A DNA stretch of 24,642 nucleotides. Source: a virus. The notes beneath the pieces were generated by a model. The model made no database searches and was not told the origin of the DNA. It saw only the letters and a program-made list of their open reading frames with translations. The stretch spans positions 1 through 24,642 of the IMG/VR virus record IMGVR_UViG_3300021957_000290, one strand, 5' to 3'. This document shows, one piece after another, positions 2,246 through 24,312 of this stretch (its first letter is position 1; each line of letters starts with the position of its first letter). The translations under genes were made by a program, and so were the position numbers.

Positions 2246-2409
2246 CAGTCTTCTAATTTAACTCCATAAGTAGTATCACATTTATTTAGAGCAGTGATAA
2301 GATCGCCAGCAACATCTGGAGCTATATGCGTCTTATAGTGCTCCTTCAGCTTTCTAGCCGCTTCAATGACTGGATAAGCAGCATCAAAGGCTCTCTTGTA
2401 GTCTATCAT
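2245..2409 (-). CDS. small conserved-looking tail-region protein (54 aa)
   Basis: This short gene fills what would otherwise be a gap between the hub protein and the glycine-rich protein. ATG at 2409 overlaps the hub stop (ATGA), and its TGA overlaps the next ATG (TGATG), so it is coupled on both sides. The product starts MIDYKRAFDAAYPVIEAARK and is predicted to be mostly helical, acidic and basic mixed, without a membrane segment. I do not recognise a family. Location suggests a small tail or tail-tip assembly factor. Confidence 0.65.
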   Translation of the reverse strand: MIDYKRAFDAAYPVIEAARKLKEHYKTHIAPDVAGDLITALNKCDTTYGVKLED

Positions 2410-7627: not shown

Positions 7628-8035
7628 TTAGGCGAAAGTGATAACGCCAGAGGAATTGAAAGTCATTGAGAAAGTCTGCGCCACGTTAGCAGGTGCGGCG
7701 ATTTCGTTACTAGGAACATGGAAGTTCCCAGTCACGGTTGAACCGTTAGCGTAGGTGAGCTGATATTTCAAGATGCTATTAGAAAGAACAGCAGCTTGAA
7801 CCAGTGCATAACCTGCATCGTCAGAAACGAAACCAGAGACAGACATTACAACAGAGCGAACCCCGCCACCGTCAAGAATGTCCTTCCATCCAGAGCTGTT
7901 CTTGTCAGTTACGTCCACCTCTTCATTGTTAATCGTCAGAGTATGCTCAGACGTATGGAGAAGAGTCGTGTAGGTTCCACTGCCGGGAGTGGTCTCTACA
8001 GCGATTTGAACTATATTTGCGTTGTACTTAGCCAT
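7628..8035 (-). CDS. major tail tube protein A (TP901-1 / phage_tail_2 type)
   Basis: The 135-residue product has the pattern of small siphophage tail tube proteins: MAKYNANIVQIAVETTPGSG, then EVDVTDKNSSGWKDIL, SVSGFVSDDAGY and a C-terminal AQTFSMTFNSSG. These correspond to the tube beta-barrel, its long loop and the closing strands. It stacks as hexameric rings around the tape measure. It lies just upstream of the tail chaperones, so it is probably the main tube subunit. It is clearly paralogous to the protein at 9596-10072: the same TDK-SSGW, SGFVSDDA and APAN-AQTFS blocks occur at the same spacing. ATG at 8035 with AGG about 9-11 bases upstream. Confidence 0.85.
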   Translation of the reverse strand: MAKYNANIVQIAVETTPGSGTYTTLLHTSEHTLTINNEEVDVTDKNSSGWKDILDGGGVRSVVMSVSGFVSDDAGYALVQAAVLSNSILKYQLTYANGSTVTGNFHVPSNEIAAPANVAQTFSMTFNSSGVITFA

Positions 8036-8039
8036 TTTT

Positions 8040-9596: not shown

Positions 9597-10072
9597 TATT
9601 GACCTTGTATATATTGGTTATTTTCGTCTGTTATGTTAGCTTCAGACTCGTCCAACAGGAAGTCAGTAAGGGCTCCCATAATGATGGCCTCTTTGCTGCT
9701 GAGTGTCACTGAGAACGTCTGAGCTGAATTTGCAGGGGCTCCATACTCCAGATTTGAAGCATGGAAGAACCCCCGTGTTATTTGCCCATCAGCGTAGATA
9801 AGTTCATAGTTATGGATCGTGTTATCTTTAACCGCTGTTTCAAGCAAAATAAACTGAGCATCATCTGAAACAAATCCACTCATGGAGATGTTTACAGATT
9901 CTACCCCAAAACCTTCGAGCCCTTGCCATCCACTTGAATCTTTGTCGGTGGTATCAGCGGGCTCTGAATTCTTGGTCTGTGTATGCTCTGAGGCGTGACC
10001 AATCTTAGTGTAAACCCCTGTTCCGGTGTAGTCCAGATTGAGGGTCATTGCATTGGCAAGGAACTTAGCCAT
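9596..10072 (-). CDS. tail tube protein B (paralog of tube A with C-terminal extension)
   Basis: The 158-residue product aligns end to end with the tube protein at 7628-8035. Shared blocks include MAK at the start, SEHT, DTTDKDSSGW, MSGFVSDDA, YADG and GAPANSAQTFS at near-identical spacing. It has an extra C-terminal tail of about 26 residues after the last tube strand, with DFLLDESEANITDENNQYI, an acidic segment also typical of short phage extensions. It lies after the tail terminator gene and is read before the fibre and tube A. It may be a second tube subunit, a decorated minor form, or the subunit that anchors the S74 fibre. ATG at 10072. Confidence 0.82.
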   Translation of the reverse strand: MAKFLANAMTLNLDYTGTGVYTKIGHASEHTQTKNSEPADTTDKDSSGWQGLEGFGVESVNISMSGFVSDDAQFILLETAVKDNTIHNYELIYADGQITRGFFHASNLEYGAPANSAQTFSVTLSSKEAIIMGALTDFLLDESEANITDENNQYIQGQ

Positions 10073-11269: not shown

Positions 11270-11906
11270 TCATTATCCTGTACTGCTCAAGCATTGGCAT
11301 AGCGCCGCACTCTTTCGCGCATTGCTCGTCACAGTCACCACGGTTAGCATACATATGCCCCACGATCAAAATAATAGCCCTTCTCAGAGCACTAGGAACG
11401 TCTGAGGCGTTATCGCCATAGCCTGCAATGTACTCGATAGAAACACCGTTTTGTGTGCGCGTTCCGGTGCCTAGTGGAATAGAATTATTCTCATTCACTA
11501 CCATCTTGCCACGCATATCTTCATCGAAGTTGTCTAGGTAGTATGAGCTTGAGGCAATCACAGTCTCATTATTACTGAAGTCATAAACCTTCACCTCAGA
11601 AATACTTTGCACTGGAGCAAACTCTAGAACAGCCTCTTCAACTCGATTAAGAATAGTTAATGGCCCTGTGATGGTTCCAGACCACCAAGCATCAGCCATA
11701 CCGTTGTTTGAGAGGTTATCGTAGTATGCTAAAACTGTTTGTGTGTTGAGTCGCCTGCTTGTGTATTTCTCTGCGAAAATACGAGCGTCCTCGATATATT
11801 GATTAAGTAAAGCGTCCTCTGCAGTATTCGTGATACGCAGGGACGCCTTTACTTCTGCCAAAGAGACAGGTTCAATCGTCGGCTTTACTGTTACCTTTGA
11901 CCGCAC
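11262..11906 (-). CDS. head-tail connector protein (HK97 gp6-like)
   Basis: The 214-residue product begins with EPVSLAEVKASLRITNTAED, the hallmark first helix of HK97 gp6-like connectors. YIEDARIFAEKYTSRRL (about 37-53) and a C-terminal helical part (LRRAIILIVGHMYANRGD, about 175-192) follow. It forms the ring beneath the portal. The start is GTG at 11906, inside the preceding gene, with an AAGGAAAA ribosome-binding site about seven bases upstream. The cysteines in GDCDEQCAKECGAMP near the C terminus are unusual for this family and could bind metal or be fortuitous. Confidence 0.85.
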   Translation of the reverse strand: MRSKVTVKPTIEPVSLAEVKASLRITNTAEDALLNQYIEDARIFAEKYTSRRLNTQTVLAYYDNLSNNGMADAWWSGTITGPLTILNRVEEAVLEFAPVQSISEVKVYDFSNNETVIASSSYYLDNFDEDMRGKMVVNENNSIPLGTGTRTQNGVSIEYIAGYGDNASDVPSALRRAIILIVGHMYANRGDCDEQCAKECGAMPMLEQYRIMNA

Positions 11907-12099
11907 GTTTTTTCCTTGTCTTTGGGGCTTTTATTTCTTCGACTGGGGCAAGTGGTTTCGTCTCAATGAGTCCACGTTGCTTTAAAAAGTCATAAAAAGA
12001 AGGGCAGCACTCGACCGCCCTTCCTTCTTTGAGGTCAACACAAGTAAGGCCATCCGGGTATGCCCGGACAGTCTTACTGGCGATGGGTAAACTAGGCAA
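11872..12099 (-). CDS. small basic protein between decoration and connector genes
   Basis: The 75-residue product has an N-terminal folded-looking part with TCVDLKEGRAVECCPSFYDF (about 19-38) and a disordered Lys/Arg/Pro-rich tail (about 47-75). The start is TTG at 12099, overlapping the previous stop by eight bases; no in-frame ATG exists. Its end overlaps the connector start by 35 bases. I recognise no family. Position between the probable decoration protein and the connector suggests a small head-completion or assembly protein. Confidence 0.6.
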   Translation of the reverse strand: MPSLPIASKTVRAYPDGLTCVDLKEGRAVECCPSFYDFLKQRGLIETKPLAPVEEIKAPKTRKKRAVKGNSKADD

Positions 12100-12463
12100 C
12101 AGGAGCCACGCGAGGAAGGCCGAGTAGTGCTGTTACGCTTTGCTCTCCACCAGTTCCGTGGGTGATGAAGGCGCGTACAAAACGCTTCGTCCCGATGTAA
12201 CCGATTTTGGCAGTACCACTTTGAACCAATGATGTGTCCTGTGCGCCGATAACGTCAGAAGCAGCTACATCAGAGTAAGAACCGCCGAGAGTATCACCCT
12301 CTTGAAGTTTGAAGGTAGATACGGTTGAAGCGTCAGCAGAAGCAACGAACAAAGCGTTGCCGTACTCCAACAGGTCAACACCAACACCAGTTACATCACC
12401 GGCTACAGTTTGAGGCTCAACGCTTACTACAGCGCCGAGATTGTTATATAAGTCTTGATTCAT
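12092..12463 (-). CDS. probable head decoration / minor head protein
   Basis: The 123-residue product directly follows the major capsid gene, where many HK97-fold phages encode a decoration or stabilising protein. It has an N-terminal DLYNNLGAVVSVEPQTVAGD, a central EGDTLGGSYSDVAASDVIGA and a C-terminal KIGYIGTKRFVRAFITHGTG (about 86-105) then LLGLPRVAPVA. That pattern, with the YIGTKRFVRA block, recurs in small post-capsid proteins of many phages. Function as decoration protein is inferred from position. ATG at 12463. Confidence 0.68.
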   Translation of the reverse strand: MNQDLYNNLGAVVSVEPQTVAGDVTGVGVDLLEYGNALFVASADASTVSTFKLQEGDTLGGSYSDVAASDVIGAQDTSLVQSGTAKIGYIGTKRFVRAFITHGTGGEQSVTALLGLPRVAPVA

Positions 12464-12475
12464 TTTATTCTCCTA

Positions 12476-13702
12476 TTAGGCTTGTTTAAGGTATTTCATA
12501 CTGGCCCAGTTCTTTATGCCGGCTCCGCACCTTTTTCTAAAATAGAAACGGATATTACCGCTTGTGCTTACGGTATACGGATCCTTCAGAACGCTCATGC
12601 CTACGCGATCAATGATCTGATAAGTTGAGCGCAAGTCACCGATACCAACAGCTTTGGCACCAGTGGCGATGTCGGGCATGTCTTCAAAGATAGCAGTACG
12701 CTGACCGATCAACATGTCAGCTTCACCAGCTTGAAAGCTAGGCTGCCAGAGATAGTTTCCTTGGCCGTCTTTCAGTTTGCGGATATAGGCTTCAGTGTTG
12801 CGATTGTACCAGATCACAGCAGCACCGCGATATTCTGGCTGCAACTTTGAGCGCAGGTCAATAATTTCGTCTGAAGTGATTGCTGTGGCTCCGGCAGTGG
12901 TTACAGTACCGATGGCACCGCGCTCATATACGTCAGCAGTTGCAGCTTCAGCGCCAGTCATCAAGCCCTGTGGTTGAGCTGGGTCGCTACCAGAGACGAA
13001 AGCAGTTGATTCCGCGCGACCAAACTTATCGGCGGCCTTGCTGTTGAGCCACTGCTCAAGGTTAAAATCAGAGTCTTCAAGCAAGTTCTGAGAGATATAG
13101 GCGTTTGCATACTGCTCTTTAACTTCGATGATTCCTTTTCCGAGCTGAGGAGTAGAAGTCTCAGGACGAGCTTGGACCTCACCAACCCAACCAGAACCCA
13201 TTTCATCATCGTCGTAGATGAATTCGTAACGGTTAGTGCCGATAGTTTGAACAGAGGCGAAGCTACGAACAGGCGAAGTATCGAAAACGCGACCCTCTGT
13301 TTGACCCATGAAAGTGGGAACGGTATAACCGCCCTCTGTGTCGATGTTGGACTGCATAGCCTTGAGCTCTTTGTCATTCAACTGCAAGTTGGCAACACTG
13401 TCAGGCATTCCAGCCTTGGCCCATTTCTTAATGCCAGACATGAAGTGCTCGTTGCTCTTTGCTTCTTTCTCTTCTTCAGCTGCGCCACTCATGCGAACGA
13501 CTGCGGCTTTAGTTTCGTCTAGCTCTTTTTTGAGAGCCTCTTTTTCTTCTTGCATACCGTTAATGGCAGAATCCATCTTGGCTTGCTTCTCTTCCAATTC
13601 AGCGACACCGCGACCTTTTTCAAGGTTGTCTAGGCGCTCATCGTTGGTTTTTTTATACTCGCTCCACGCTTGGCCGAGTTCTTCTAACTGCTTAGATTCC
13701 AT
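12476..13702 (-). CDS. major capsid protein (HK97 gp5 fold)
   Basis: The 408-residue product has an N-terminal scaffold-like delta domain (about 1-85) made of Glu/Lys-rich coiled coil, expected to be removed by the prohead protease. The HK97-fold shell domain follows: GGYTVPTFMG (about 124-133), RYEFIYDDDEMGSGWVGE (about 153-170), AYISQNLLEDSDFNLEQWL and RAESTAFVSGSDPAQPQGLM. IGDLRSTYQIIDRVGMSVLK comes near the end. It is immediately preceded by the protease gene. It would form the icosahedral shell. ATG at 13702. Confidence 0.94.
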   Translation of the reverse strand: MESKQLEELGQAWSEYKKTNDERLDNLEKGRGVAELEEKQAKMDSAINGMQEEKEALKKELDETKAAVVRMSGAAEEEKEAKSNEHFMSGIKKWAKAGMPDSVANLQLNDKELKAMQSNIDTEGGYTVPTFMGQTEGRVFDTSPVRSFASVQTIGTNRYEFIYDDDEMGSGWVGEVQARPETSTPQLGKGIIEVKEQYANAYISQNLLEDSDFNLEQWLNSKAADKFGRAESTAFVSGSDPAQPQGLMTGAEAATADVYERGAIGTVTTAGATAITSDEIIDLRSKLQPEYRGAAVIWYNRNTEAYIRKLKDGQGNYLWQPSFQAGEADMLIGQRTAIFEDMPDIATGAKAVGIGDLRSTYQIIDRVGMSVLKDPYTVSTSGNIRFYFRKRCGAGIKNWASMKYLKQA

Positions 13703-13707
13703 TGGAT

Positions 13708-14412
13708 TTATCCTTTAAAAATGGAGGTGAGATTACTTACTGCGGTTTCAAAGTCTGAATCATCATTCTGAGCATCTCGCTCAGCGTCTAGCTCTGCTGC
13801 CTTGGCATCTCGCACAAGTGCATCATAACCACCAGCCAGAATGGCCTTTGAGGACTCACGAGAGAAACCAGCATCCCGCAGCTTTTTCTCAACTTCTCTT
13901 TTACTTAACAAATCATTTTTCTTTACTGCTGTTACGTCTGCTTTCGGATTCATGGCGAATGGTGCCACGGATACCTCGAACAATTCAACCTCGATGAGTT
14001 CACGGATCATGCCGCCATTGAATTCAATCATCTCGAACTCTTTGACAGAGTAGCCTATGCTCAGACCTTTGGGGCCAGTGCCACGCATAACATTATGAGC
14101 CCTTACGGCGTCCTCTAGCTTAGACTCGCCATTGATCCAGAGCTTGCCTTTAACCTTCAGCCCTTTGGCATCTTCTGACATCTCTAGCCAGTCGCCAATG
14201 ATATTGCTGGAGTCGTGATAGTATAACAACTGAGGCATTTGTCCTTTGCTTTGCCACTCTTGCAATGACTTAGAGAACGCCCCAGCTCTTACAATGTCAC
14301 CACCGAAGTCGACGTTCCCAAAGACAGAGCCATAGCCTTCAAACAATCCACGGTCTGAAGTCTGGTCTTCTGCCTTGATTTCAAAAGGGATGAGTGCGTG
14401 CTTTATTTCCAT
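13708..14412 (-). CDS. prohead protease (HK97 gp4-like, U35 family)
   Basis: The 234-residue product carries the family motifs: GYGSVFGNVDFGGDIVRAGA (about 26-45), LLYYHD with probable catalytic H66, GLSIGYSV with probable nucleophile S118, and ELFEVSVAPFAMNPKA (about 143-158). It cleaves the delta domain of the capsid protein during prohead maturation. The C-terminal tail (about 165-234) is charged and helical and is often self-removed in this family. It is unusual here that the gene is separated from the portal by a block of fibre-type genes. ATG at 14412. Confidence 0.92.
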   Translation of the reverse strand: MEIKHALIPFEIKAEDQTSDRGLFEGYGSVFGNVDFGGDIVRAGAFSKSLQEWQSKGQMPQLLYYHDSSNIIGDWLEMSEDAKGLKVKGKLWINGESKLEDAVRAHNVMRGTGPKGLSIGYSVKEFEMIEFNGGMIRELIEVELFEVSVAPFAMNPKADVTAVKKNDLLSKREVEKKLRDAGFSRESSKAILAGGYDALVRDAKAAELDAERDAQNDDSDFETAVSNLTSIFKG

Positions 14413-14443: not shown

Positions 14444-15064
14444 TCAAACCGTAATTCCATAAGCGATTGCATCAAACTGATCGACGCCTTGAACGTCATC
14501 GCGAACGGTGAAGCGCAGGCAGTCCGTTGAGCCTTTGCGGAGCTTTAAGCCCCACTGGATGCCGAATATATTAGTGAAGTCTAGTACAGGCAGAAAAGCC
14601 TCAGATGTTCCGACCACGTTATTAGCTTTAAACGAACTGTTGCCACTACCAAAAGCAGGAGCGCCACCCGATAGACGTATAAACTCGAAGTTGGAGACGA
14701 GATTATCATGGATGATAGTCGCGCCAATGTCTTGAGTCACCCAGTCCAGCTTCATCCCATTGGTCAGAGCGCCGATGTTTCCGAAGTTGTTTAGACTTGC
14801 ACCTGCATCAGCAATCACGACAGAGCACGACTTGATGTAAGTGTCTGCGTTCTGGTTAGCCCTTACAATGAACTCCACTTCGTTGACAGAGCCATCAACG
14901 CGCATATCAGAGCTTCCGTTGTTCTCGAAGAACTCACGAAAAGGCATAGGTGATTCATCAGTTTTAGGGGGATGAGTGTGGATAACAACACCTAGAGCCC
15001 CCTCTTCGTTTACTTTCGCGGTGCGCCCGTTTTCACCGTCTTTTAGATGAAAATCAACGCTCAC
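14444..15064 (-). CDS. fibre-block structural protein, paralog 3
   Basis: The 206-residue product begins with KDGENGRTAKVNEEGALGVV. The two preceding proteins have matching N-terminal modules: a Gly-rich turn followed by a Lys/Arg-Val-Asn strand. The rest is beta-rich: residues 60-110 (VNEVEFIVRANQNADTYIKS) resemble the strand pattern of its neighbours, and 120-206 end in FTVRDDVQGVDQFDAIAYGI. The start is GTG at 15064, overlapping the previous gene by 11 bases. I recognise no named family. By position and paralogy it is a virion surface protein, perhaps a capsid decoration or spike subunit. Confidence 0.65.
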   Translation of the reverse strand: MSVDFHLKDGENGRTAKVNEEGALGVVIHTHPPKTDESPMPFREFFENNGSSDMRVDGSVNEVEFIVRANQNADTYIKSCSVVIADAGASLNNFGNIGALTNGMKLDWVTQDIGATIIHDNLVSNFEFIRLSGGAPAFGSGNSSFKANNVVGTSEAFLPVLDFTNIFGIQWGLKLRKGSTDCLRFTVRDDVQGVDQFDAIAYGITV

Positions 15065-15629
15065 TATCTTTGACGTGCATGACTAGTGCAGCGTAAGCAG
15101 AGCCGCCAACAGTGGTGCCTTCAATCTTAATGGCCATGCTTGAGCCCTTTTCTAGCTCGATGTTGATAGCAGCGAACAGCCTTGAGTTGTTCGACATATA
15201 GAATTGAACCGCATCTGAGCCGCCTGTGACAGTTCCAGAGACTTTGCCTTTATAGGCTAGTGTGGTATCATCGAGAACTTTAGAGCTGCCGAAGTTCCGG
15301 TTTACGTTCATATCTACAGGAGTAGCGTCTGTGATAAGGTCGCCGCCTGTTGGGTTAGCTATGATGGTAGCTGTCACCATATCAGCCACGGTTGAGCCTT
15401 TGACACCGATTGCAATGGCCTCGATGATACAAGGTTGAGCTTCGTTGTTCTTAAAGTAAATCAGTGTTGAGTCACCGGACACAGTGATGTCACCAGTGTT
15501 GATGTTGTAAGCGTCTCCAGTCTCAACTGCCGATTGCGCCTCAGTCTCAGATATAGCGAAAACAGCAGCTTCATTTCTGCCATTTACTTTTAGACCGCGA
15601 CCCGATCCTGTGTCGTCTTGAATTCTCAT
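15054..15629 (-). CDS. fibre-block structural protein, paralog 2
   Basis: The 191-residue product starts RIQDDTGSGRGLKVNGRNEA and then has an AVETGDAYNINTGDITVSGD stretch closely matching TETGDTYNINSNETIITGGE in the upstream protein. Further shared features are STLIYFKNNE against SALFYIKNQE, NPTGGDLITDA against NPTSGTLISTA, and NRNFGSS against NRNYGSN. It is therefore a tandem duplicate of the gene at 15626-16219. It looks like an all-beta domain with a long C-terminal strand region (AALVMHVKD). Probably a surface structural protein. It is coupled to its upstream gene by an ATGA overlap. Confidence 0.72.
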   Translation of the reverse strand: MRIQDDTGSGRGLKVNGRNEAAVFAISETEAQSAVETGDAYNINTGDITVSGDSTLIYFKNNEAQPCIIEAIAIGVKGSTVADMVTATIIANPTGGDLITDATPVDMNVNRNFGSSKVLDDTTLAYKGKVSGTVTGGSDAVQFYMSNNSRLFAAINIELEKGSSMAIKIEGTTVGGSAYAALVMHVKDSER

Positions 15630-16219
15630 AGCTGTGTACCGTTTAATGTAGCGTTGACTGCAACGATGATTTTAGTGTTCGTTATCCCAGCAGGAGGCGT
15701 GTATGATATGCCGAGAGCAGCGCCTTTGGGAAGCACAACGATAGTAGAGAAGTCTACAAGCGTCACAGCAGCAGTGCTGGGCAGATAGACAGGAATCATA
15801 TTATCCTCACCAGATATGGTTGAGCCATCAATACCTTGATAGCAGTCAGCGGTCAATGACTGATTGCTGCCATAGTTCCTGTTCTGCTGATTAGCTGCTG
15901 TTGCTGTAGATATTAGTGTGCCGCTTGTTGGATTGCGATATATCTTCAAGATAGGCTGTCCAGCTGTGCCAGTGTAGTCCATGATATTGACCACGATAGA
16001 GCTAATGATTAGGTTCGTGTTCTCTTGATTCTTGATATAAAACAGGGCAGATTCACCGCCTGTGATGATGGTTTCGTTTGAGTTAATGTTGTAGGTGTCG
16101 CCCGTCTCTGTGGCTGCCTCAGTTAGATTGAGGAAGATGCCAGAAGTTGAGAGCCTATTGTTTGCTGTGACTCTTGCACGGTAGCCTCCACCTGTGCCGT
16201 CAACTATTTCATCGCTCAT
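15626..16219 (-). CDS. fibre-block structural protein, paralog 1
   Basis: The 197-residue product starts MSDEIVDGTGGGYRARVTAN, sharing the N-terminal module of paralogs 2 and 3. Its TGDTYNINSNETIITGG, NPTSGTLISTA and NRNYGSNQSL blocks are matched in paralog 2. No membrane or signal segment is present. The beta-rich, Thr/Asn/Gly composition is typical of phage surface modules. Start and stop codons both overlap neighbours. Probable role: subunit of a head or tail appendage. Confidence 0.72.
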   Translation of the reverse strand: MSDEIVDGTGGGYRARVTANNRLSTSGIFLNLTEAATETGDTYNINSNETIITGGESALFYIKNQENTNLIISSIVVNIMDYTGTAGQPILKIYRNPTSGTLISTATAANQQNRNYGSNQSLTADCYQGIDGSTISGEDNMIPVYLPSTAAVTLVDFSTIVVLPKGAALGISYTPPAGITNTKIIVAVNATLNGTQL

Positions 16220-16422
16220 AACTCTTCACCTGTAATAAAACTCAGTTGTTCATTCATTTTCTTCATTTCTTTCAGAATGTCACTTAGATAGTTATCACTT
16301 GTAACCAAGCGCCCTAGCGTTGCGTCTACGTTTGAGCGCCATGCAGTAACGTCAAAGTTCGTGCCATCTGCAGCGCGTTCCTCGCCACGATCAAGGCTTA
16401 GTTGATTTCTGTTAATACTCAA
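16216..16422 (-). CDS. small fibre-block accessory protein (68 aa)
   Basis: The 68-residue product has a polar N-terminal part (SLDRGEERAADGTNFDVTAW) and a helical C-terminal half, SDNYLSDILKEMKKMNEQLS, ending FITGEEL. Short proteins with a terminal 'LSDILKEMKxMN' helix are seen next to phage appendage genes. It may be a connecting or trimerising subunit. It shares ATGA overlaps with genes on both sides. Function not established. Confidence 0.6.
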   Translation of the reverse strand: MSINRNQLSLDRGEERAADGTNFDVTAWRSNVDATLGRLVTSDNYLSDILKEMKKMNEQLSFITGEEL

Positions 16423-17528
16423 GGAATATAAGCAGTCGTCTGCTTGGTCCCATCCGCAAAGGTTATGCCGTCATCTAAAGTGAGCTTAAGAACCCCGTCT
16501 TTCTTGTACTGTAGGCCGTCTTTCAAAGTTAGAACCTCTGTACTTGGGCTTGAGATGTCGACCAGATCAAAGGCGGCTAAACCTACTGGCTGCAACTTCA
16601 AAGATAAAGAGTTGACAGAGATGAATTCACTTCTCGCCTTAAAGACATCAAGCGATTCAAGGGCAGTGAAACCTCCGCCATCTAGGTCATACGAGATATT
16701 TACATCTGAATCAGCTAGGGCAGACCCAGCAGCATTTTTCACGATGATAGAGGCTGGTGATATGTTTATGGCCTCAGTGAGCCCCATGTCAGCCTCTACT
16801 GTGTTATCACTTGTCGCTGGGGCTGCCTCGTGGGCTTTGATCTGCCAGATACCAGAGCCGTTCAAGTTTCCGGTCCATCTGACTCTCCAACGGGCATGAG
16901 AACCGAAAGAAGAGAAGGAGGCAACGTACATAACCTTACTGTCTGGAGACGTGAAGTTAATAAAGTCATAGCTAGCGTTGTGATGAGCCTCTTCCCATGT
17001 CGACCCGTTGTAATACTCAACGTAGACTTGGCCTGTGTAAGAAGCGTAGCTACCCGGCAGACTGTATTCGACTTTCGTTAAGTCCTTCGGAGCTGGGAAT
17101 TCCATCTCAAAATGATGATCGGCTGTCCCTCCCCTTAGCGCCGTGCTATAAGTTCCGTCTAGCACATCAGCGATAGTTCCGATTGCTGGCGTGAAGTCGA
17201 TAGAACCCGTGATGTCCGAGCTGTCCACAAGAAGCTCAGCAACCATATTGTTCCAGTTGCCAGAGGTGTACTGGATGTTGCTACCTGCGGAGGCAAAGTC
17301 TCCGCCGCTCTTCTCAAACAAGGTAGCAGCAGTAGCCATACTTACACCGTTTTCACCGAACCCCGGAGCAGGAGAGATGACGCCGTTACTGTTAGCCCAC
17401 TCGTCTTCTGTGCGCTTAGCAAACTCAGCTAAGTCTATAGCGAAGTTTTGACCACTGCGAGAGATTACGATTAAGTCACCGTCTTCGACATTGGATAAAG
17501 TTATCTCTGAGATTTTCTTACTGCTCAT
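16419..17528 (-). CDS. large fibre / spike protein
   Basis: The 369-residue product begins KKISEITLSNVEDGDLIVIS, a common N-terminal pattern of phage fibres that attach to a base protein. Residues 130-230 look like a galactose-binding, discoidin-like beta sandwich (KDLTKVEYSLPGSYASYTGQ and WRVRWTGNLN). The C-terminal end, LTLDDGITFADGTKQTTAYI, is a typical phage fibre tip motif. It is the second largest protein type in the block and a candidate fibre that binds host surface sugars. ATG at 17528 overlaps the preceding 43-residue gene. Confidence 0.72.
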   Translation of the reverse strand: MSSKKISEITLSNVEDGDLIVISRSGQNFAIDLAEFAKRTEDEWANSNGVISPAPGFGENGVSMATAATLFEKSGGDFASAGSNIQYTSGNWNNMVAELLVDSSDITGSIDFTPAIGTIADVLDGTYSTALRGGTADHHFEMEFPAPKDLTKVEYSLPGSYASYTGQVYVEYYNGSTWEEAHHNASYDFINFTSPDSKVMYVASFSSFGSHARWRVRWTGNLNGSGIWQIKAHEAAPATSDNTVEADMGLTEAINISPASIIVKNAAGSALADSDVNISYDLDGGGFTALESLDVFKARSEFISVNSLSLKLQPVGLAAFDLVDISSPSTEVLTLKDGLQYKKDGVLKLTLDDGITFADGTKQTTAYIP

Positions 17529-17649
17529 CTTCGAAAGTTATATATCCACCGGATTCAAGAAGAATAGAGAAAGTGTTTTCGAGTAGAAGACAAGGAGGCA
17601 CCAGAACAAGCACATTCCCTGTGCCAATGTTAGTTGGTGAGATATTCAC
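17518..17649 (-). CDS. small beta-type protein (43 aa), GTG start
   Basis: The stretch between the spike base gene and the large fibre gene holds one open frame. GTG at 17649 overlaps the previous TGA, and its TAA overlaps the next ATG region. The product begins VNISPTNIGTGNVLVLVPPC and ends with a strand-rich SGGYITFEDEQ. Tight coupling on both sides argues it is translated. No family recognised; likely a small appendage-assembly or structural protein. Confidence 0.5.
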   Translation of the reverse strand: MNISPTNIGTGNVLVLVPPCLLLENTFSILLESGGYITFEDEQ

Positions 17650-17909
17650 CAGAACACCACTATACCAGTGGCAGTTGTTCCTGTTGAGTGTATGAGCTTG
17701 GCAACAATAGGCAAAATGGCACCTGCTGGAGCGATTAGGCTAATAGTGTCGCCTCCGCTTGTTGTTACCTTTATCACTCCACCAACACCAACAAAGATGG
17801 CGCGAGAGTAATGCGCTAACTCATTGCTATCATGTGGCGTCACCTCAAAGCCCTGTCTTGCAGGTGAATTGAGCCCGGTTACTAAACCTTTATAGTCATC
17901 CATGCCCAT
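17646..17909 (-). CDS. spike base protein-like (GTA Rcc01079-type)
   Basis: The 87-residue product begins MGMDDYKGLVTGLNSPARQG, then has FEVTPHDSNELAHYSRAIFV and GVGGVIKVTTSGGDTISLIA, ending in LIHSTGTTATGIVVF. This pattern matches the small family named after Rhodobacter capsulatus Rcc01079, the base of the gene-transfer-agent head spike. In that particle, base plus fibre project from the capsid and bind host capsular polysaccharide. Here it lies within a run of fibre genes between the portal-proximal and capsid genes, supporting a head-attached appendage. ATG at 17909 is used, but ATG at 17903 is also possible. Assignment is by remembered pattern, not a search. Confidence 0.72.
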   Translation of the reverse strand: MGMDDYKGLVTGLNSPARQGFEVTPHDSNELAHYSRAIFVGVGGVIKVTTSGGDTISLIAPAGAILPIVAKLIHSTGTTATGIVVFW

Positions 17910-17916
17910 ATTCTAC

Positions 17917-18171
17917 CTACTCCGGTTCACTTGCATAGTTCGATGAGTTATATTCTTCTGTCGGAGCGTTGCCGTAGTCGTAGTGTTCACACATCTCAAC
18001 ATCAAACTTGCCGTCTAGCCTTTCGCTAACTTCTGAGAAGGTCACGGTGGTGAGGTCGTAAGCGTCACCCGTTGACATAATCCCAGCATCCAAGCGCCTA
18101 GCCTTATCCGCTGCAAGTGCCAGAGCGTCTGCTGCTTTGGCTTCTGATTCTGTGTTGTATATGGCTCTCAT
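17917..18171 (-). CDS. small acidic fibre-block protein (84 aa)
   Basis: The 84-residue product has an Ala-rich N-terminal helix (ESEAKAADALALAADKARRL), a middle part DAYDLTTVTFSEVSERLDG and a Glu/Tyr/Asn-rich acidic end. Its ATG at 18171 overlaps the preceding stop. No family recognised. Its position between a lectin-like fibre and the spike base gene suggests an accessory or adaptor role in the same appendage. Confidence 0.6.
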   Translation of the reverse strand: MRAIYNTESEAKAADALALAADKARRLDAGIMSTGDAYDLTTVTFSEVSERLDGKFDVEMCEHYDYGNAPTEEYNSSNYASEPE

Positions 18172-18980
18172 ACTGTCGGTGCTGCGTCTTTGTAGGGGTG
18201 GCCGATAGGCAAACTTGATTCAGTGCCCCACTTCCAAGCTAGATAGCCCTCCATCTTTTGCCGTGTGTCTGTTGTGCAGTTCTTCACGATCACAATTTCT
18301 TGATAGTGACCAGTTGAGAAACTATCCACTGCCTTCCTTGACCCGATATATCCGGGCGTTCCGCCGTAAGCAGTAGACGAAGCGTCTGACCAAGTTTGAG
18401 TTGCAACAGCAGTGCCATCAAGGAAGCTAGCCGCGCCATTTACAGTGCCATCAAATTTAAGGTCCATAGATGAAACGTGAGTGCCAGAACTATCAACAAG
18501 TCCGGTGGCTAGATTCGTGTTTCCAGATGATCGACAGTTGCCAGTATCATCCATCCTCAAGAACCCAACTTCCTGCCATCTGATATACGATTGATATTCT
18601 GAGAACTCACCAATCATAAAGACGCAATAATTGTCCCCAACATCAAGCCCACCGATCACCATGGTTTCAGTGCCATCAACAAACACTGAAGGCAAGCCAT
18701 TTAGTCCTGTCGCGCTGTACGATGGCTGGCGAGATGCTGTACCTTGCAGTGCATTATCACCGTTCCCACTCTTGTCATCCCATCTGCTGACATCTGAGCC
18801 GCTTAGATATGGCACGATGGTGTCAGCATCGTTGCTGTCATACCACTTGAAAGTTGTCACATCAGCAGGTGTCCACAAGACTGACGCGCTATCAAAAACA
18901 ACAGTTGAGCCTAAGTACGCCTTCTTTATCTCAGTCGAACCAAGATAAAGTTTATTGATATCGGTACTCCCTAGCTTCAT
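18168..18980 (-). CDS. lectin-like (concanavalin-A fold) fibre protein
   Basis: The 270-residue product starts with three near-repeats of about ten residues (KLGSTDINKL, YLGSTEIKKA, YLGSTVVFDS), a small beta-repeat attachment module. The rest fits a LamG/concanavalin-A-like lectin domain of phage proteins: KWYDSNDADTIVPYLSGSDV (about 45-64), DDKSGNGDNALQGTASRQPS, then GYIGSRKAVDSFSTGHYQEI. The closing EGYLAWKWGTESSLPIGHPY is a strongly recurring motif in these phage lectin modules. It probably binds host glycans. The gene is coupled to its neighbours by ATGA overlaps. Confidence 0.8.
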   Translation of the reverse strand: MKLGSTDINKLYLGSTEIKKAYLGSTVVFDSASVLWTPADVTTFKWYDSNDADTIVPYLSGSDVSRWDDKSGNGDNALQGTASRQPSYSATGLNGLPSVFVDGTETMVIGGLDVGDNYCVFMIGEFSEYQSYIRWQEVGFLRMDDTGNCRSSGNTNLATGLVDSSGTHVSSMDLKFDGTVNGAASFLDGTAVATQTWSDASSTAYGGTPGYIGSRKAVDSFSTGHYQEIVIVKNCTTDTRQKMEGYLAWKWGTESSLPIGHPYKDAAPTV

Positions 18981-19528
18981 GCGTCTGTGATGAGGTACAA
19001 GGTAGTAGCTACAGGCGTGCCTGCTGCGTGCTCTGCTGTCGTGAGAGATACAACATTCAGCACAACATCAGAACCTGTAGGTTCTCCAGCTGTTGCTGAG
19101 TTTATCGTGTTCACATCTGCGCCTGCCTCAATGCCTGCTAGCTTGCTTTGATCGACAGTTGTATAATCCTCTTCTGATAATCCTTTGCCTGCTACCTTGT
19201 CCTCTTTGAGGTCCAGAGCTGTTTGTTGAGCTGTAGATACTGGTTTATCTGCGTCACTGGTGTTATCCACTGAGCCTAGCCCTACATCGCCCTTAACCAG
19301 CGTCACAGCGCCTGTTTTGGCTGCTACTGAGGTGACTGTGTTCACCTGTGCGCCTGCTGCTATTCCACTGAGCTTACTCTGCTCAACTGTGGTGTAGTCC
19401 TCTTCAGATAGACCCTTGCCAGCGACTACTTCAACTTTATCGGTGTTGAGGTTATCAAAGTTGCTGTTGATACTGGCCCGGTCTACACCTACGTTGCCGG
19501 TGCCTAATAGTGTGATGATCGTGCTCAT
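18977..19528 (-). CDS. repeat-containing fibre shaft protein
   Basis: The 183-residue product has two 29-residue repeats (36-64 and 113-141) of the form AGKGLSEEDYTTVEQSKLSG. Between them is LGSVDNTSDADKPVSTAQQT, the well-known phage fibre segment 'VDNTSDADKPVSTAQQ'. Such repeats occur in neck, head and baseplate fibres as triple-stranded shafts. The C terminus (VVSLTTAEHAAGTPVATTLY) resembles fibre ends that meet the next module. It would give the appendage its length. The start is ATG at 19528, overlapping the previous stop. Confidence 0.8.
   Translation of the reverse strand: MSTIITLLGTGNVGVDRASINSNFDNLNTDKVEVVAGKGLSEEDYTTVEQSKLSGIAAGAQVNTVTSVAAKTGAVTLVKGDVGLGSVDNTSDADKPVSTAQQTALDLKEDKVAGKGLSEEDYTTVDQSKLAGIEAGADVNTINSATAGEPTGSDVVLNVVSLTTAEHAAGTPVATTLYLITDA
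19106..19192 (-). repeat. fibre repeat copy 2 (29 codons)
   Basis: Second copy of the AGKGLSEEDYTTV...AGADVNT unit in the fibre shaft gene. It is protein-level similar to copy 1 but differs in several codons, so it is an old duplication. Confidence 0.75.
19337..19423 (-). repeat. fibre repeat copy 1 (29 codons)
   Basis: First copy of the AGKGLSEEDYTTV...AGAQVNT unit in the fibre shaft gene, about 230 bases from copy 2. Confidence 0.75.
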
Positions 19529-19755
19529 GCTGTTGCGGCTAGGTCATTCCAAGTAGTTGAGTTTAAGCTATCCCATGTAATGCCGTTCACTGTAGCATAG
19601 TCCCATGTGACAGAGTTGGGATTTGCTGCTTTAGCAACGATAGCGGAGCTGATAGAGTTCAATGTAACAATGACAGAATTCAGCTCAGACGCTATGACAG
19701 AGTCATCTGACGCTGCATAAGTAGCCGAGGATGATGTTTTGTTGAGCTGAATCAT
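19525..19755 (-). CDS. small fibre-block protein with TW repeats (76 aa)
   Basis: The 76-residue product has a helical N-terminal half rich in Ser, Ala and Val, and a C-terminal half with three short repeats around TWDYATVNG, TWDSLNST and TWNDLAATA (Trp 51, 61 and 69). Such Trp-containing repeats are common in short phage appendage proteins. It couples to both neighbours by ATGA overlaps. It could be an adaptor between the base-type protein upstream and the fibre shaft downstream. Confidence 0.65.
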   Translation of the reverse strand: MIQLNKTSSSATYAASDDSVIASELNSVIVTLNSISSAIVAKAANPNSVTWDYATVNGITWDSLNSTTWNDLAATA

Positions 19756-20105
19756 ACCACAACGGTTGAGCGATTGCAGAATTTCATATCGCCACGCACA
19801 ACCATTTCATCCTCGCCGCTTAGGTTAGTGGTGAAGATGTCGTACTTGTAAATGGTTGGCTGAAAATCTGCGCTGTCTGCATCTGACATATCGAGCTGGA
19901 AACTACCAGCAGCTTCAGAGATGATAGCGATTTTCCCATTGGCGATTGAAAACTCTTTAACTACAGCAGTGTCAAACGCTTTGCGAACTTCGCATTTGAT
20001 GGCATAGCCTGTGATGTCTACGTTAGAACCCTCGCTTTGAATCTGAAACTGCACAAAGTCAGTTGCGCCAATATCAAAGGTGAGGTCTACTGTTGGGGCT
20101 TTCAT
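19752..20105 (-). CDS. BppU-N-like / fibre base beta-domain protein
   Basis: The 117-residue product has an Ig-like beta pattern seen in fibre base proteins and the BppU N-terminal domain. TFDIGATDFVQFQIQSEGSN leads to VDITGYAIKCEVRKAFDTAV, then SFQLDMSDADSADF, YKYDIFTTNLSGEDEM and a final VVRGDMKFCNRSTVVV. In Gram-positive phages this domain anchors receptor-binding proteins; similar domains also occur in head fibres. Here it is the first gene of the appendage block after the head morphogenesis gene, suggesting it anchors fibres to the particle. ATG at 20105. Confidence 0.65.
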   Translation of the reverse strand: MKAPTVDLTFDIGATDFVQFQIQSEGSNVDITGYAIKCEVRKAFDTAVVKEFSIANGKIAIISEAAGSFQLDMSDADSADFQPTIYKYDIFTTNLSGEDEMVVRGDMKFCNRSTVVV

Positions 20106-20121
20106 GTTGATATTCTAGTCA

Positions 20122-20958
20122 TTAGTCGTCATCTTCCAAATCTTCCTCTGGTTCCCACGTCAAGACGCAACGGCAGTTAATAATCTGACCTTTTGAACCT
20201 GCCCTGTCCTGTGGGTATTTCATATTGGATGTTCCTACCCTAAAAGTCTCTTCTGGCTTTTTCAAACCTTGTTTCTCAGCGTTGCGATGGTCTTTCCTTG
20301 TTCTGCCGTCCAGTGTTGCATTCCATTCTTTTAACATTGGAGGCAGTTCCATATCACTGATGAGGTCAAATTGTGATTCACTCACCGCCATGCCTGTCTC
20401 TGTTCTGGCTATAGTCCTAGCTCTTGAGATAGGCGATGGCGCTTTATGTCCTGCTGCTGTCACAGTTCCCTCATTGATATGAGGCTCGATGAGCTTGGCT
20501 ATTTGTTCCTCTCCTAATCCTTCTTCGACTGAATCGCGAACTAGAACCAGTAAAATATTCTTGCTGGTTTCAGTGATAAGCACAGACTCCTTGAACGCTA
20601 GCTTGGTGAACTTCTGCATCAATAACCGGGTAGCGTTTCCGGGGTCTTCTGTCGCCGGGATAGGGTCAAAGATAGACGCCTTCCCTTCACGCTTCAGTAG
20701 TGTTGCATCAAGATAACGCCTTGAACTTTCTATGCTGGTAAAATAAAGCTCGCCTAGAATGGCCTTTAGATTAGCCCTATGGACCTCTAGACCTGCTTCC
20801 ATCCTGCCCTGTCCACCAGCAGCATAGTCCTCAGCTGCTTGTCCTGCCATGCGCTCAATCTCGCGCTTTAGCTTAGGCTCGTATGCTCGCTCAATAAGCA
20901 GGCGTCTTCTGTTCTGAATGGCTGCCTGTCGTGTTTTTTGGGCTCTAGTGAGCGCCAT
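20122..20958 (-). CDS. head morphogenesis protein (Mu gpF / SPP1 gp7-like)
   Basis: The 278-residue product has an N-terminal basic helical part and a C-terminal Mu F-type domain: SRARTIARTETGMAVSESQF (about 178-197), LKEWNATLDGRTRKDHRNAE and INCRCVLTWEPEED, including the conserved N-C-R-C turn. In SPP1 and Mu these minor capsid proteins are packaged with the portal and act early in DNA entry. I chose the ATG at 20958 (MALTRAQKTR), which overlaps the portal end by 14 bases and has GGGGTGTGAG upstream. A longer form from 21000 is possible but less likely. Confidence 0.88.
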   Translation of the reverse strand: MALTRAQKTRQAAIQNRRRLLIERAYEPKLKREIERMAGQAAEDYAAGGQGRMEAGLEVHRANLKAILGELYFTSIESSRRYLDATLLKREGKASIFDPIPATEDPGNATRLLMQKFTKLAFKESVLITETSKNILLVLVRDSVEEGLGEEQIAKLIEPHINEGTVTAAGHKAPSPISRARTIARTETGMAVSESQFDLISDMELPPMLKEWNATLDGRTRKDHRNAEKQGLKKPEETFRVGTSNMKYPQDRAGSKGQIINCRCVLTWEPEEDLEDDD

Positions 20959-22267
20959 GCTCACACCCCAGCAGATCAAAAGCCTTCTGCTCTGCTTCAT
21001 CCCTTGGCATTCCAGAGCGTATCAGTGACTTCGCTACGTTCTCCATTTCCTTCTCTTCTGGAGTGAAGACATCAAGCCCTAGAGGAATCTTGTTAGCGTC
21101 AGTCATAATCATGTCAGCGTCAGGCTCGTCTCTTGGTTCGTCACCGTAGAAGCCCCTGATTTCATTAATGGTGTACGCTCCAGAGTTCTGCCTTTGTTCG
21201 TTCATCTGGTCGCGTTGTGGCTGCAATGCTTCCATGTCTGCACGGTCATAGAATAGCTCTAGGCTTTCATCAAACTCTGGAACAAGCCAGCGGTTAAGCT
21301 CTGAAGCGTATAGATCAAGCACTGGATTGACTGTCTCGATCTGGTGAGCCATCCGCGCTTCTGCGTAGTTCGCATACGTCTGAGAGCCTTCAACACCGAT
21401 GAGTTGAGTTGGCACTCCGAACACCTCGCATATTTCCTGCTTTGAATACTTAGAACCACCTAACCAATCGGCATCTTTAGGCGTGAGTCCTAGCTGCTGG
21501 TATTTGAGTCCACCGCCAAGGATGAGGAAGTTGCTAAGCTTCTGCTTAAATCCACTTTTCTTCTGTAGGTCATCACTCAATTCTTTACGCTGTGCACTCG
21601 TGACAGGCTGTTCAGTGCTAAGGATGCCACTAGGTCGAAGGTCGTTCTTCAGCAGGTCATATCGGCTTTTATTAGCTGCATTGAGCTGGTCCCCTGCGCT
21701 TGCTCCTGCTTTGAGCGGAGACTGACCGAAGTATGGTTTCTGAGGGTTAGGGTTGAACGTGCGCCAATGTAGCATATCGCTCTTACCTGTGAACATATCG
21801 ACATCCCAAGTAACTTCACCACGCTGATTCTTGTTGAAGGCATATTGACTTGGCATTCGTGGATTACGCTTGTCGTGAGCTATGCTCATGTTGTACGGCT
21901 GCCAGTTCCAAAGCTCTAGCCTCTGACCGCCTATGTGCAGCATCTCAGTAAAGACGTTGCCAATCAGCCAATAGAAGCCGAATGCAGCGGTGCGGAACTC
22001 AACACCGCCTTGATCCATGTTCGGCTGTTTAAGCAGGTCCAGAAGTGGATGATCTGTGATTTTCTCAGCGTCACCTTTCTTGCGTAGACTTATCTTTGCT
22101 TTCGCTGCGTTCGTCGCGTTCTTATTGACACAAGCGAAAATGGTAGCGTTGAGCCCGTAGCCTTCTTCAGCGTATTTGACGTCGCCCTGCATGCTCCAGT
22201 CATGCCTTCCAGCATTATGAACATGTGCCTGTGAAACGGTCGATTTACGTTCTAGAAATTCAAACAT
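20945..22267 (-). CDS. portal protein (HK97 gp3-like)
   Basis: The 440-residue product has the portal pattern. ATIFACVNKNATNAAKAKIS (about 42-61) is followed by DHPLLDLLKQPN, FYWLIGNVFTEML and GQSPLKAGASAGDQLNAANK. LGLTPKDADW, EICEVFGVPTQLIGVE and YANYAEARMAHQIETVNPVL follow, ending in a helical crown region. It forms the dodecameric DNA channel. I use the ATG at 22267 (MFEFLERK) and not an upstream one that would overlap the terminase; its ribosome-binding site is weak. It lies between the terminase and the head morphogenesis gene. Confidence 0.94.
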   Translation of the reverse strand: MFEFLERKSTVSQAHVHNAGRHDWSMQGDVKYAEEGYGLNATIFACVNKNATNAAKAKISLRKKGDAEKITDHPLLDLLKQPNMDQGGVEFRTAAFGFYWLIGNVFTEMLHIGGQRLELWNWQPYNMSIAHDKRNPRMPSQYAFNKNQRGEVTWDVDMFTGKSDMLHWRTFNPNPQKPYFGQSPLKAGASAGDQLNAANKSRYDLLKNDLRPSGILSTEQPVTSAQRKELSDDLQKKSGFKQKLSNFLILGGGLKYQQLGLTPKDADWLGGSKYSKQEICEVFGVPTQLIGVEGSQTYANYAEARMAHQIETVNPVLDLYASELNRWLVPEFDESLELFYDRADMEALQPQRDQMNEQRQNSGAYTINEIRGFYGDEPRDEPDADMIMTDANKIPLGLDVFTPEEKEMENVAKSLIRSGMPRDEAEQKAFDLLGCEHGAH

Positions 22268-22281
22268 TCTGCAATTGTAGC

Positions 22282-23508
22282 CTATATGATTCCTATGGAA
22301 AGGGAAGGCGTCGAGAAGGCCGCCCAACACCTAGATACCGCATCAATCTGATCATCAGTTCGACCCTTATCCTCTATCGTAAACGCTATGGCCTGAGAAA
22401 CAAACGACTTATTCCACTCCCCCCGAAGCAGCGTTAATTGTCCAGATTCAAGGCGGCTTATCCATGGAGCAGAGCAGCTTATCTTGTCCTTAGTTGTCCT
22501 GACATCCCGTATTACCTGAGACTGCATCCTCTTCTCTCTTCTGAGGTCATCAATTAGCCCTATCATCTGAGCATTAGATTCAATATATGCAGCGCATTCA
22601 TGCCTCTCAATAAAGCTCATTATCTGGTCCTTAGCGTTAGGCCATGTCTTCTTGAACGTCTCTATGTCAACAATCTGATAGCGATTATCTGACCCTCTCA
22701 CCATGGCACACAAAGCCGTGTCGTCTGCGCTATCCTTCTCCGAAACAGCAAGGTCAACGCCTATCACTTTTTCCCCCTCTATCGGCATATCGTCAATTCT
22801 CAGCCACTCCCTCTTGATAATTCCAGACCCTGCATCAACAAATTTCCCATAAGCCTCTTGATCCCTAATGGCTCCCTCTGGAAGCTCAGCAATAACCTCA
22901 GCCACTGCCTCTTGATTTAGGAATGGATTATTCTCAGTTGGTATATTGCAGTGATGATAATTTGACTCCCCACCCTCCCCCTTCTTAAACATATCATAAT
23001 AAAGACAATCGGACCCGTCCTTATCCGTTCTGCCCTTTGGTGTGCCTCCGATATAGACAATACAGTCTTGATAATCAGCGGTCATAGGAAGAACTGCATT
23101 GTTCCATAAATACCTGCCCCTATCGCCCTTTAGAATGATCCCTGCCTCATTTATTATTATCCTATGATAACCAAACCCCTCCCAGTTCTGAGGTCTCTCT
23201 GCACTACGAAAGTCAATCACAGACTCATTTATATTCATCTCCTTCTTTTGAGCGTTCCAGTTCCATAAGTTCTCATCAAGTTGCTTAAGAACTGGCATAA
23301 AATACCGCTCAACATATCTATCAAGGTTGGTGTGAACGGTATCGCCCCACAGCATCCTATGAGCATGTCTCAATCCATGAGATATACAAAAGTTTGCAGC
23401 TCCATGAGTGAACCCCACGCGCCGCCCCTTTGTCATCACGCGGTACTTGCCATGGTCGCCAAAAAAGTAGTCGTGCTGGTCACGACTAAACTTAATCGGT
23501 AATCTCAT
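22282..23508 (-). CDS. terL: terminase large subunit
   Basis: The 408-residue product packages DNA into the prohead. The N-terminal ATPase has a degenerate Walker A (KGRRVGFTHG, 27-36), without the usual GKT lysine after the loop, as in several phage TerL groups that use upstream Lys or Arg. The Walker B-like region is RIIINEA (116-122), with Asn in place of Asp before the catalytic Glu, and a coupling motif YIGGTPKG (152-159) follows. The C-terminal nuclease (RNase H fold) shows D252 in VIGVDLAV, E310 in AAYIESNAQ and D386/D389 in TDDQIDAVSR, which would bind metal. ATG at 23508 lies inside the preceding gene. Confidence 0.94.
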   Translation of the reverse strand: MRLPIKFSRDQHDYFFGDHGKYRVMTKGRRVGFTHGAANFCISHGLRHAHRMLWGDTVHTNLDRYVERYFMPVLKQLDENLWNWNAQKKEMNINESVIDFRSAERPQNWEGFGYHRIIINEAGIILKGDRGRYLWNNAVLPMTADYQDCIVYIGGTPKGRTDKDGSDCLYYDMFKKGEGGESNYHHCNIPTENNPFLNQEAVAEVIAELPEGAIRDQEAYGKFVDAGSGIIKREWLRIDDMPIEGEKVIGVDLAVSEKDSADDTALCAMVRGSDNRYQIVDIETFKKTWPNAKDQIMSFIERHECAAYIESNAQMIGLIDDLRREKRMQSQVIRDVRTTKDKISCSAPWISRLESGQLTLLRGEWNKSFVSQAIAFTIEDKGRTDDQIDAVSRCWAAFSTPSLSIGII

Positions 23509-23773: not shown

Positions 23774-24286
23774 TTATTGATAGGACATTGTATTCTGCAA
23801 ACTTCTCTCATATTTTCCACGCTCAAAGGCTGCCTCTAGCTCACAATCGTAGTGCCCTATCGTCTTGTGCTTATGATTATGCTTCATCGTTGCGATGTAT
23901 TTTGACTTGGTTTTGCACCAATGAACACCTATGTATTTTGAGTTTCCACTCATCCCCTTGTGGATGTTTTGGCCAGTAGTTAAGAATCTCAAATTTGAAA
24001 TATCGTTATTCTTCTTGTCTCCATCAATGTGATCGACAACTTTATCATCTGGAATATTTCCGAGAAAAGCGCCTGCAACTAATCGGTGGACAAGATATGA
24101 ATGCTTCTTGTTATCTCTATAGAGATTGACGATAAAGTATCTATTCCCACTCAGCTTTATGTTTCGACCGGGATATACTCTGTTGATATTTTTGCCTCTC
24201 CTAGGAAGGCTTCTAATCCTACCAAGACTAGACACATTGTAGAGACCTTCCCATCCACAAACGGGCAACCATTTCTCTTCACTCAT
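23774..24286 (-). CDS. HNH homing endonuclease (NUMOD4, HNH, AP2-like)
   Basis: The 170-residue product has three modules. NUMOD4 spans about 3-30 (EKWLPVCGWEGLYNVSSLGR, then IRSLPRR). An HNH_3 nuclease spans about 66-110 (VVDHIDGDKKNNDISNLRFL, with H86 and conserved Asn residues). A C-terminal AP2-like DNA-binding module spans about 117-160 (YIGVHWCKTKSKYIATMKHN). Such free-standing homing enzymes cut an allele lacking the gene and spread by repair, and they often lie beside terminase genes. I chose ATG at 24286 (MSEEKW), which has TTGGAG six bases upstream. The upstream ATG at 24304 has no ribosome-binding site. It ends seven bases before the terminase small gene. Confidence 0.92.
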   Translation of the reverse strand: MSEEKWLPVCGWEGLYNVSSLGRIRSLPRRGKNINRVYPGRNIKLSGNRYFIVNLYRDNKKHSYLVHRLVAGAFLGNIPDDKVVDHIDGDKKNNDISNLRFLTTGQNIHKGMSGNSKYIGVHWCKTKSKYIATMKHNHKHKTIGHYDCELEAAFERGKYERSLQNTMSYQ

Positions 24287-24312
24287 AATATTCTCCAACT
24301 CCATAAGATTAA

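Follow-up and report, generated by a model that had tools for sequence, protein, structure and literature searches.

A twelve-gene block in the head operon of a viral contig encodes a gene transfer agent-type spike base and a putative hypervariable set of adhesins

We analysed a 24.6-kb viral record from IMG/VR (IMGVR_UViG_3300021957_000290, positions 1 to 24,642, hereafter the window), which is probably a fragment of a viral genome, and in particular a block of twelve genes at positions 14444-20105, termed here b1 to b12 in the order of transcription. All late genes lie on the minus strand, to which the coordinates of window genes given below refer. Their order is HNH endonuclease, small terminase-like protein, large terminase, portal, MuF-like protein, the twelve block genes, S78 protease, HK97 capsid protein, a 123-amino acid (aa) protein, Ad1, Hc1, Neck1 and tail terminator, followed by a pair of major tail proteins that flank a fibre, the tape measure and the tail-tip genes (2406-4987 and 1472-2245), which thus sit apart from the block. 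A first-pass annotation of this DNA had placed about twelve genes between the MuF-like gene and the protease, and Pfam and PHROGs uphold this order, with the portal protein as the anchor gene of the locus (20945-22330; PF04860, E 1e-59; phrog_12), the Mu F-like minor head protein as the upstream border (20122-21000; PF04233, 1e-10; phrog_2468, 4e-31) and the S78 prohead protease as the downstream border (13708-14412; PF04586, 8e-23). The block is filled by twelve open reading frames (ORFs), which share 4-11 nt with their neighbors or leave gaps of 31 nt at most; this argues for a coding, translationally coupled operon and excludes chance ORFs.

Gene b6 (17646-17909) encodes an 87-aa protein in which the first-pass annotation had recognised a spike base of the Rcc01079 type. 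This assignment proved correct: b6 matches the RCAP_Rcc01079 family over its full length (NCBIfam NF048002, 91.9 bits against a cut-off of 28, E 2e-26) and aligns with the solved base of the head spike of the Rhodobacter capsulatus gene transfer agent (RcGTA; PDB 6tb9, E 4e-11), with Asn14 of b6, as we read the alignment, at the position of the cation-binding Glu12 of Rcc01079. In RcGTA a ring of five spike-base subunits binds capsid protein pentamers and holds a single fibre by its initial residues (IALGLGLGL), arranged as a five-point star in the ring pockets; the spike fibres bind the capsule (PMC7296036; PMC10218006). The solved homologues of b6 are all named spike bases, and one of them is located on capsid vertices; PDB 8cjz is entitled "Spike Base Protein". 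The window also possesses an HK97-fold major capsid protein of the RcGTA type, the proposed landing site of b6 (12476-13702), whose best PDB match is Rcc01687 of RcGTA (E 1.1e-58). With b6 and an RcGTA-type capsid protein in one operon, both sides of the known interface appear to be represented.

Scans of viral contigs and genomes with the single sequence of b6 returned no relatives, and an alignment was needed to obtain viral matches. A scan of IMG/VR with five spike bases found 219 relatives, of which 80 were kept. The gene directly downstream of the spike base frequently opens with a "star" peptide, i.e. an alternation of I/L/V/M residues over at least three steps, as in RcapNL (MGLGLGIGLGLS), P8625 (MIGLGLDLSL) and ZHS (MIGLGLNIW). 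Such a peptide is present in 30 of 57 non-redundant downstream genes vs 99 of 2623 (4%) other ORFs (p 5e-26), and one with four steps in 19 and 20 of them, respectively, in a comparison that slightly favours the test set, since alternative starts were allowed only for the downstream genes. The frequent occurrence of the star peptide suggests that bases of this family generally serve as the foot of a fibre, which extends the observation made for RcGTA to the whole family.

The lectin-like protein noted by the first-pass annotation is b4 (18168-18980), encoded two genes before b6; it is indeed LamG-like (phrog_10356, 9e-31) and begins with an anchor of three LYLGST repeats. A profile of this LamG family built without any spike-base locus matched 8 of the 65 genes located immediately after a spike base, compared with 5 of 2486 other ORFs (p 1e-10), and all eight carry the star peptide by the score used above. 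This enrichment argues that fibres on spike bases repeatedly use the b4 family as their tip domain, and b4 itself is probably a glycan-binding tip, as judged from its family. The block holds in b4 a candidate sugar-binding component of an RcGTA-type spike, on a protein whose attachment to b6 is conjectural. In one locus, L116 (contigs and loci of our comparison set carry L numbers), three ORFs at ~7860-8700 match the spike-base profile beside a star-peptide LamG fibre.

Downstream of b6, the GTG start of b7 (17518-17649; 43 aa with LLLE/ILLE repeats) overlaps the b6 stop, and b7 is followed by b8 (16419-17528), a 369-aa fibre with an ISEL-type N-terminus; b7 is probably the link between the base b6 and the fibre b8. 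Repeats of the LLxEDG type were found in two window proteins only, namely b7 and the C-terminus of the tail protein MTP1 (9596-10072), both of which directly precede the only two ISEL-type fibres of the window (16419-17528 and 8040-9596, respectively); the same pairing was seen by eye in L008 and L025. The LLxEDG tag and the ISEL-type fibre may form a docking pair, a rule for which the loci provide too few cases for a general statistic. The two major tail protein genes (7628-10072) are themselves separated by an inserted gene for a 518-aa S74-chaperone fibre; in the relative with the closest portal, the Manatee Spring phage, the two tail tube genes lie side by side, without a fibre between them. 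Another junction (18910-19158) joins the C-terminus of b3 (..TTLYLITDA) to the LYLGST repeats of b4, and its DNA is 71% identical in the otherwise different contig L025, which suggests that these termini, too, could be a docking pair. In a test for an LYLGST anchor that follows a tail-tip C-terminus, the window pair was the sole case covered, that of L025 being identified by eye.

Part of the block recurs in L008 (IMGVR_UViG_3300021957_004778), a short-tailed podovirus contig that is P22-like according to the matches of its capsid protein, Ad3 and Hc3. It shares with the window the DNA of b8 (95.6% over 1088 nt) and of b4-b5 (87.4% over 951 nt), in swapped order, and carries b8-b4-b5 between the adaptor Ad3 and the head closure Hc3; the encoded proteins are 97% (b8), 93% (b4) and 88% (b5) identical. 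The 84-aa b5 (17917-18171) travels with b4, directly after which it is found again in L008. As in the window, b8 is preceded there by a short LLLEDG-repeat ORF, while the N-terminus of b4 differs, with MAKRSRDRDRSSSAS in place of LYLGST. We read this as adhesins that may be exchanged as units, with their anchors replaced. A 112-aa protein of L008 located in the place of b6 was considered as a spike-base homologue and rejected, as profile comparison revealed nothing. The window has its HNH endonuclease gene (23774-24304) upstream of the terminase, and L008 has an HNH-like gene (4614-5180) near the shared adhesin module; these genes are possibly agents of module transfer.

The downstream end of the block comprises a 68-aa adaptor (b9, 16216-16422), two jelly-roll appendage proteins (b10, 15626-16219, and b11, 15054-15629) and a beta protein (b12, 14444-15064). 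The first-pass annotation had described three paralogous beta proteins, which holds for b10 and b11 (33% identity, E 2e-20) and fails for b12, which shows no BLASTP similarity to either (E 0.85 and 1.4) and represents a separate family that ends most b10/b11 arrays (54% identity to L046, 45% to L038). Among 50,697 phage records no relatives of b8, b11 or b12 were found at 1e-3. In our loci, relatives of b10/b11 occur in 11 cases, often followed by relatives of b12. A P22-like contig has them behind gp4-like and Hc3 genes; elsewhere they lie ahead of a T7-type portal, between the capsid gene and Ad1, in front of a tail sheath gene, or in large phage contigs. Across podo-, sipho- and myovirus contigs, which differ in their tail tips, the neighbors of b10-b12 relatives thus include genes for capsid, portal, neck or sheath proteins. 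An AlphaFold2 model of b11 (predicted local distance difference test score, pLDDT, 82.7) is a single jelly roll that matches many others in the PDB (Z 6-9), among them viral coats, the vertex turret of HFTV1 and a phage tail fibre tip. TNF/C1q domains have this fold as well, and one shared so widely does not by itself place b11 on the head or on the tail. The fold match to ORF57 of Pantoea phage LIMEzero (assigned by protein length; template modelling score 0.64) is uninformative on location, as that gene follows the endolysin at the end of the genome. The model of b12 is poor (pLDDT 61).

The gene directly upstream of the b10/b11 relatives ends in a similar amphipathic helix. A hidden Markov model built from the nine other cases was run against 2903 ORFs and picks b9 (E 5e-5) before any other ORF outside the training set. 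When each case was left out in turn, b9, L040, L041 and L045 scored strongly and the remaining six weakly, with L038 and L039 lowest, hence only some of the cases show the motif clearly. The N-terminus of b9, in turn, matches the N-termini of proteins encoded directly after MuF (L128 and L130, E 1e-5, 37.5% identity over 40 aa; L127, E 7e-4). These features are consistent with an adaptor whose foot is specific to the clade and whose C-terminal grip is shared. We tentatively propose that b9-b12 are a morphotype-independent unit, exchanged among sipho-, myo- and podoviruses, in which b9 mounts b10/b11 and b12 on the head or neck, and that adhesins swap mounts via short anchor peptides (star, LYLGST, LLxEDG), one lectin moving between spikes and other virions.

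At the upstream end of the block, b1 (19752-20105) is a small beta protein and a likely fibre base (phrog_1084, 1e-15; weakly phrog_3304, "L-shaped tail fiber protein assembly", 6.5e-4). Its description as BppU-like in the first-pass annotation is not supported by Pfam, in which b1 has no match, and thus no BppU N-terminal domain, at E 0.5. A phrog_1084 protein is also present inside the MuF-protease gap of L006, a b1-like protein was recognised by eye in L127, and in L153, L157, L158 and L165 the b1 family directly follows the capsid gene. The small TW-repeat protein and the repeat-bearing shaft of the earlier description were both recovered: b2 (19525-19755; 76 aa, no family) carries three C-terminal TW repeats and is probably a docking or linker peptide, to judge by its size and repeats, and b3 (18977-19528) is a fibre shaft in which a ~30-aa fibre repeat occurs twice and the C-terminus is tail-tip-like; b3 matches many tail-fibre PHROGs (best 8e-17) and weakly PF24243 (Phage_tail_C). 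Directly after the capsid gene the window encodes the 123-aa protein (12092-12463; phrog_5707), possibly a head decoration; cyanophage KBS-S-2A has a gene of similar size in the same place.

Relatives with portals 45-56% identical to that of the window (L003, L004, L006, L007, L127, L128, L130 and L131) carry fibre-like, small beta-protein or b1-like genes after MuF, and all close portal relatives whose contig reaches past MuF have further genes there, mostly of the appendage type. More distant portal relatives mostly have 22-1400 nt between MuF and protease, thus the enlargement of this gap in the window is real. Gene order among these relatives indicates that the gap is a clade-wide hypervariable locus and not the site of a unique insertion. 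The earlier statement that the block resembles no known phage region is refuted by the similar layout of L046/L132 and by the order MuF, spike base, fibre, protease in Edwardsiella phage vB_EpM_ZHS. In L004 a 109-aa protein (11353-11682; phrog_1048/phrog_872) is encoded between portal and MuF, and we presume that it resembles DUF2829/Tad2-like anti-defence proteins.

We consider it rather probable that the block is a hypervariable adhesin locus in the head operon, with b6 on capsid pentamers and bearing a sugar-binding fibre. For b4-b6 a glycan-binding spike at the capsid vertices is the most likely reading, supported by the confirmed b6, the RcGTA-type capsid and the LamG family of b4. The same three elements sustain the earlier suggestion of a head appendage that binds polysaccharide, while the idea of one head structure built by all twelve genes finds no support. 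Gene content, families, gene order, module transfer and the statistical association of bases with the star peptide and with LamG are direct results of the comparison, whereas the location of the block proteins on the virion, their stoichiometry and their ligand are inferred. By homology, b6 would form an RcGTA-type ring on the capsid pentamers and carry a sugar-binding fibre, in which the lectin b4 and the fibre b8 would provide reach and tip, joined via short anchor peptides (the b4 N-terminus and the b7 repeats). The second unit would consist of the helical adaptor b9 mounting b10, b11 and b12 on the head or neck, and b1-b3 would add a further fibre, although block proteins other than b4 and b6 may belong to head, neck or tail. 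The combined effect would be that the virus first attaches reversibly to polysaccharide on the host surface and only then engages its tail tip.

Several observations weigh against such a head spike. The star peptide is absent from b7 (score 1) and from all block proteins (none reaches 3), thus a strict RcGTA-type fibre is not present in the window, and a fibre of b6, if any, is docked otherwise, perhaps through b7, which overlaps both b6 and b8. No recognisable spike base was found in the four relatives with a complete MuF-protease gap (L006, L128, L130, L046). Head genes are located within 3 kb of at least 15 of 69 other spike-base loci and were not seen near the remaining 54, according to window-derived profiles of low sensitivity that miss distant head genes. 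The spike-base homologues of RcapNL and P8625 follow tail genes, some homologues lie in tail/lysis gene regions, PHROGs assign a "tail fiber" label to b3 and b6, and b1 has a weak match to a family of tail-fibre assembly proteins. The labels and the tail-gene neighbors in RcapNL and P8625 would agree with tail or neck (collar) fibres transcribed together with head genes, where b1-b3, b8 and b9-b12 sit on the portal, neck or tail and b6 is a foot there, as would the neighbors of b10-b12 relatives (Ad1/Neck1 in L037, Hc3 in L036, sheath in L038) and the position of b8-b4-b5 between Ad3 and Hc3 in L008. We nevertheless regard this as rather unlikely, considering that all homologues of b6 with a solved structure bear the name of spike base, that one of these sits on capsid vertices, and that the window has both an RcGTA-type capsid and a separate tail-tip set.

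A mixed origin, which overlaps with the hypervariable adhesin locus favoured here, is a possible account to which we give limited credence: b4-b6 (with b7-b8) alone would be a head spike, and b1-b3 and b9-b12 independent appendages gathered at one recombination hotspot. It would explain why b8, b4 and b5 occur in L008 without b6, why b9-b12 lack a spike base in all other loci, why the b1 family follows the capsid gene in L153-L165, and why the order of units differs between the window and L046; translational coupling and the shared position argue instead for joint expression. Passive accumulation of morons without a role in the virion, to which low sequence conservation and the lack of a named function for half the genes might point, is highly improbable in view of the virion-type families, the shared adaptor b9 and arrays, and the clade-wide presence of such genes.

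If the spike reading is true, the virus could grip the sugar coat of its host before the tail engages, and, with the 219 spike-base relatives in IMG/VR, adhesion at capsid vertices could be a widespread and exchangeable level of host recognition, not confined to gene transfer agents. A spike base followed by a star peptide would serve as a sequence rule for finding head spikes among genes that databases now label "tail fiber", and the block would exemplify how adhesins pass between phages with long and with short tails at a locus among the head genes.

In the general Pfam, PHROG and NCBIfam scans, none of them aimed at gp8.5, no hit pointed to the phi29-type head fibre gp8.5. The baseplate of TP901-1-type siphophages, with its set of BppU and receptor-binding protein, differs in that the block lies between MuF and protease and not beside Dit/Tal, the tail-tip genes of the window being at 1472-4987. 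Among the late genes of cyanophage KBS-S-2A (NC_020854) a LamG relative of b4 is also found in an extra block within head/neck genes, but between Ad1 and Hc1. The contig L046/L132 (IMGVR_UViG_3300002231_000828; portal 33% identical) shares MuF, a b9-like gene, b10 (44%), a b10-like fragment, b12 (54%), two large fibres, a b1-like gene and the protease; however, the spike base and the LamG protein b4 were not found in it, the two large fibres are different, and so is the gene order. In Edwardsiella phage vB_EpM_ZHS (ZHS_7 to ZHS_11; OM621816) the order MuF, spike base, star fibre, putative head fibre, protease, capsid parallels that of the window, although it involves three genes only, without b1-b3 and b8-b12, in a myovirus (with a tail sheath) whose star peptide is canonical (MIGLGLNI). 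Finally, the RcGTA head spike (base Rcc01079, fibre Rcc01080) has in common with the window a base to which b6 is a full-length homologue, a homologous capsid, and a lectin-type receptor domain, here in b4. It differs in that its spike genes are at a separate locus, whereas those of the window lie in the head operon, lack the star peptide after b6, have lectin and base as separate, non-adjacent genes, and are surrounded by extra appendage genes. The b9-b12 unit and the docking rule go beyond what the cited RcGTA papers describe.

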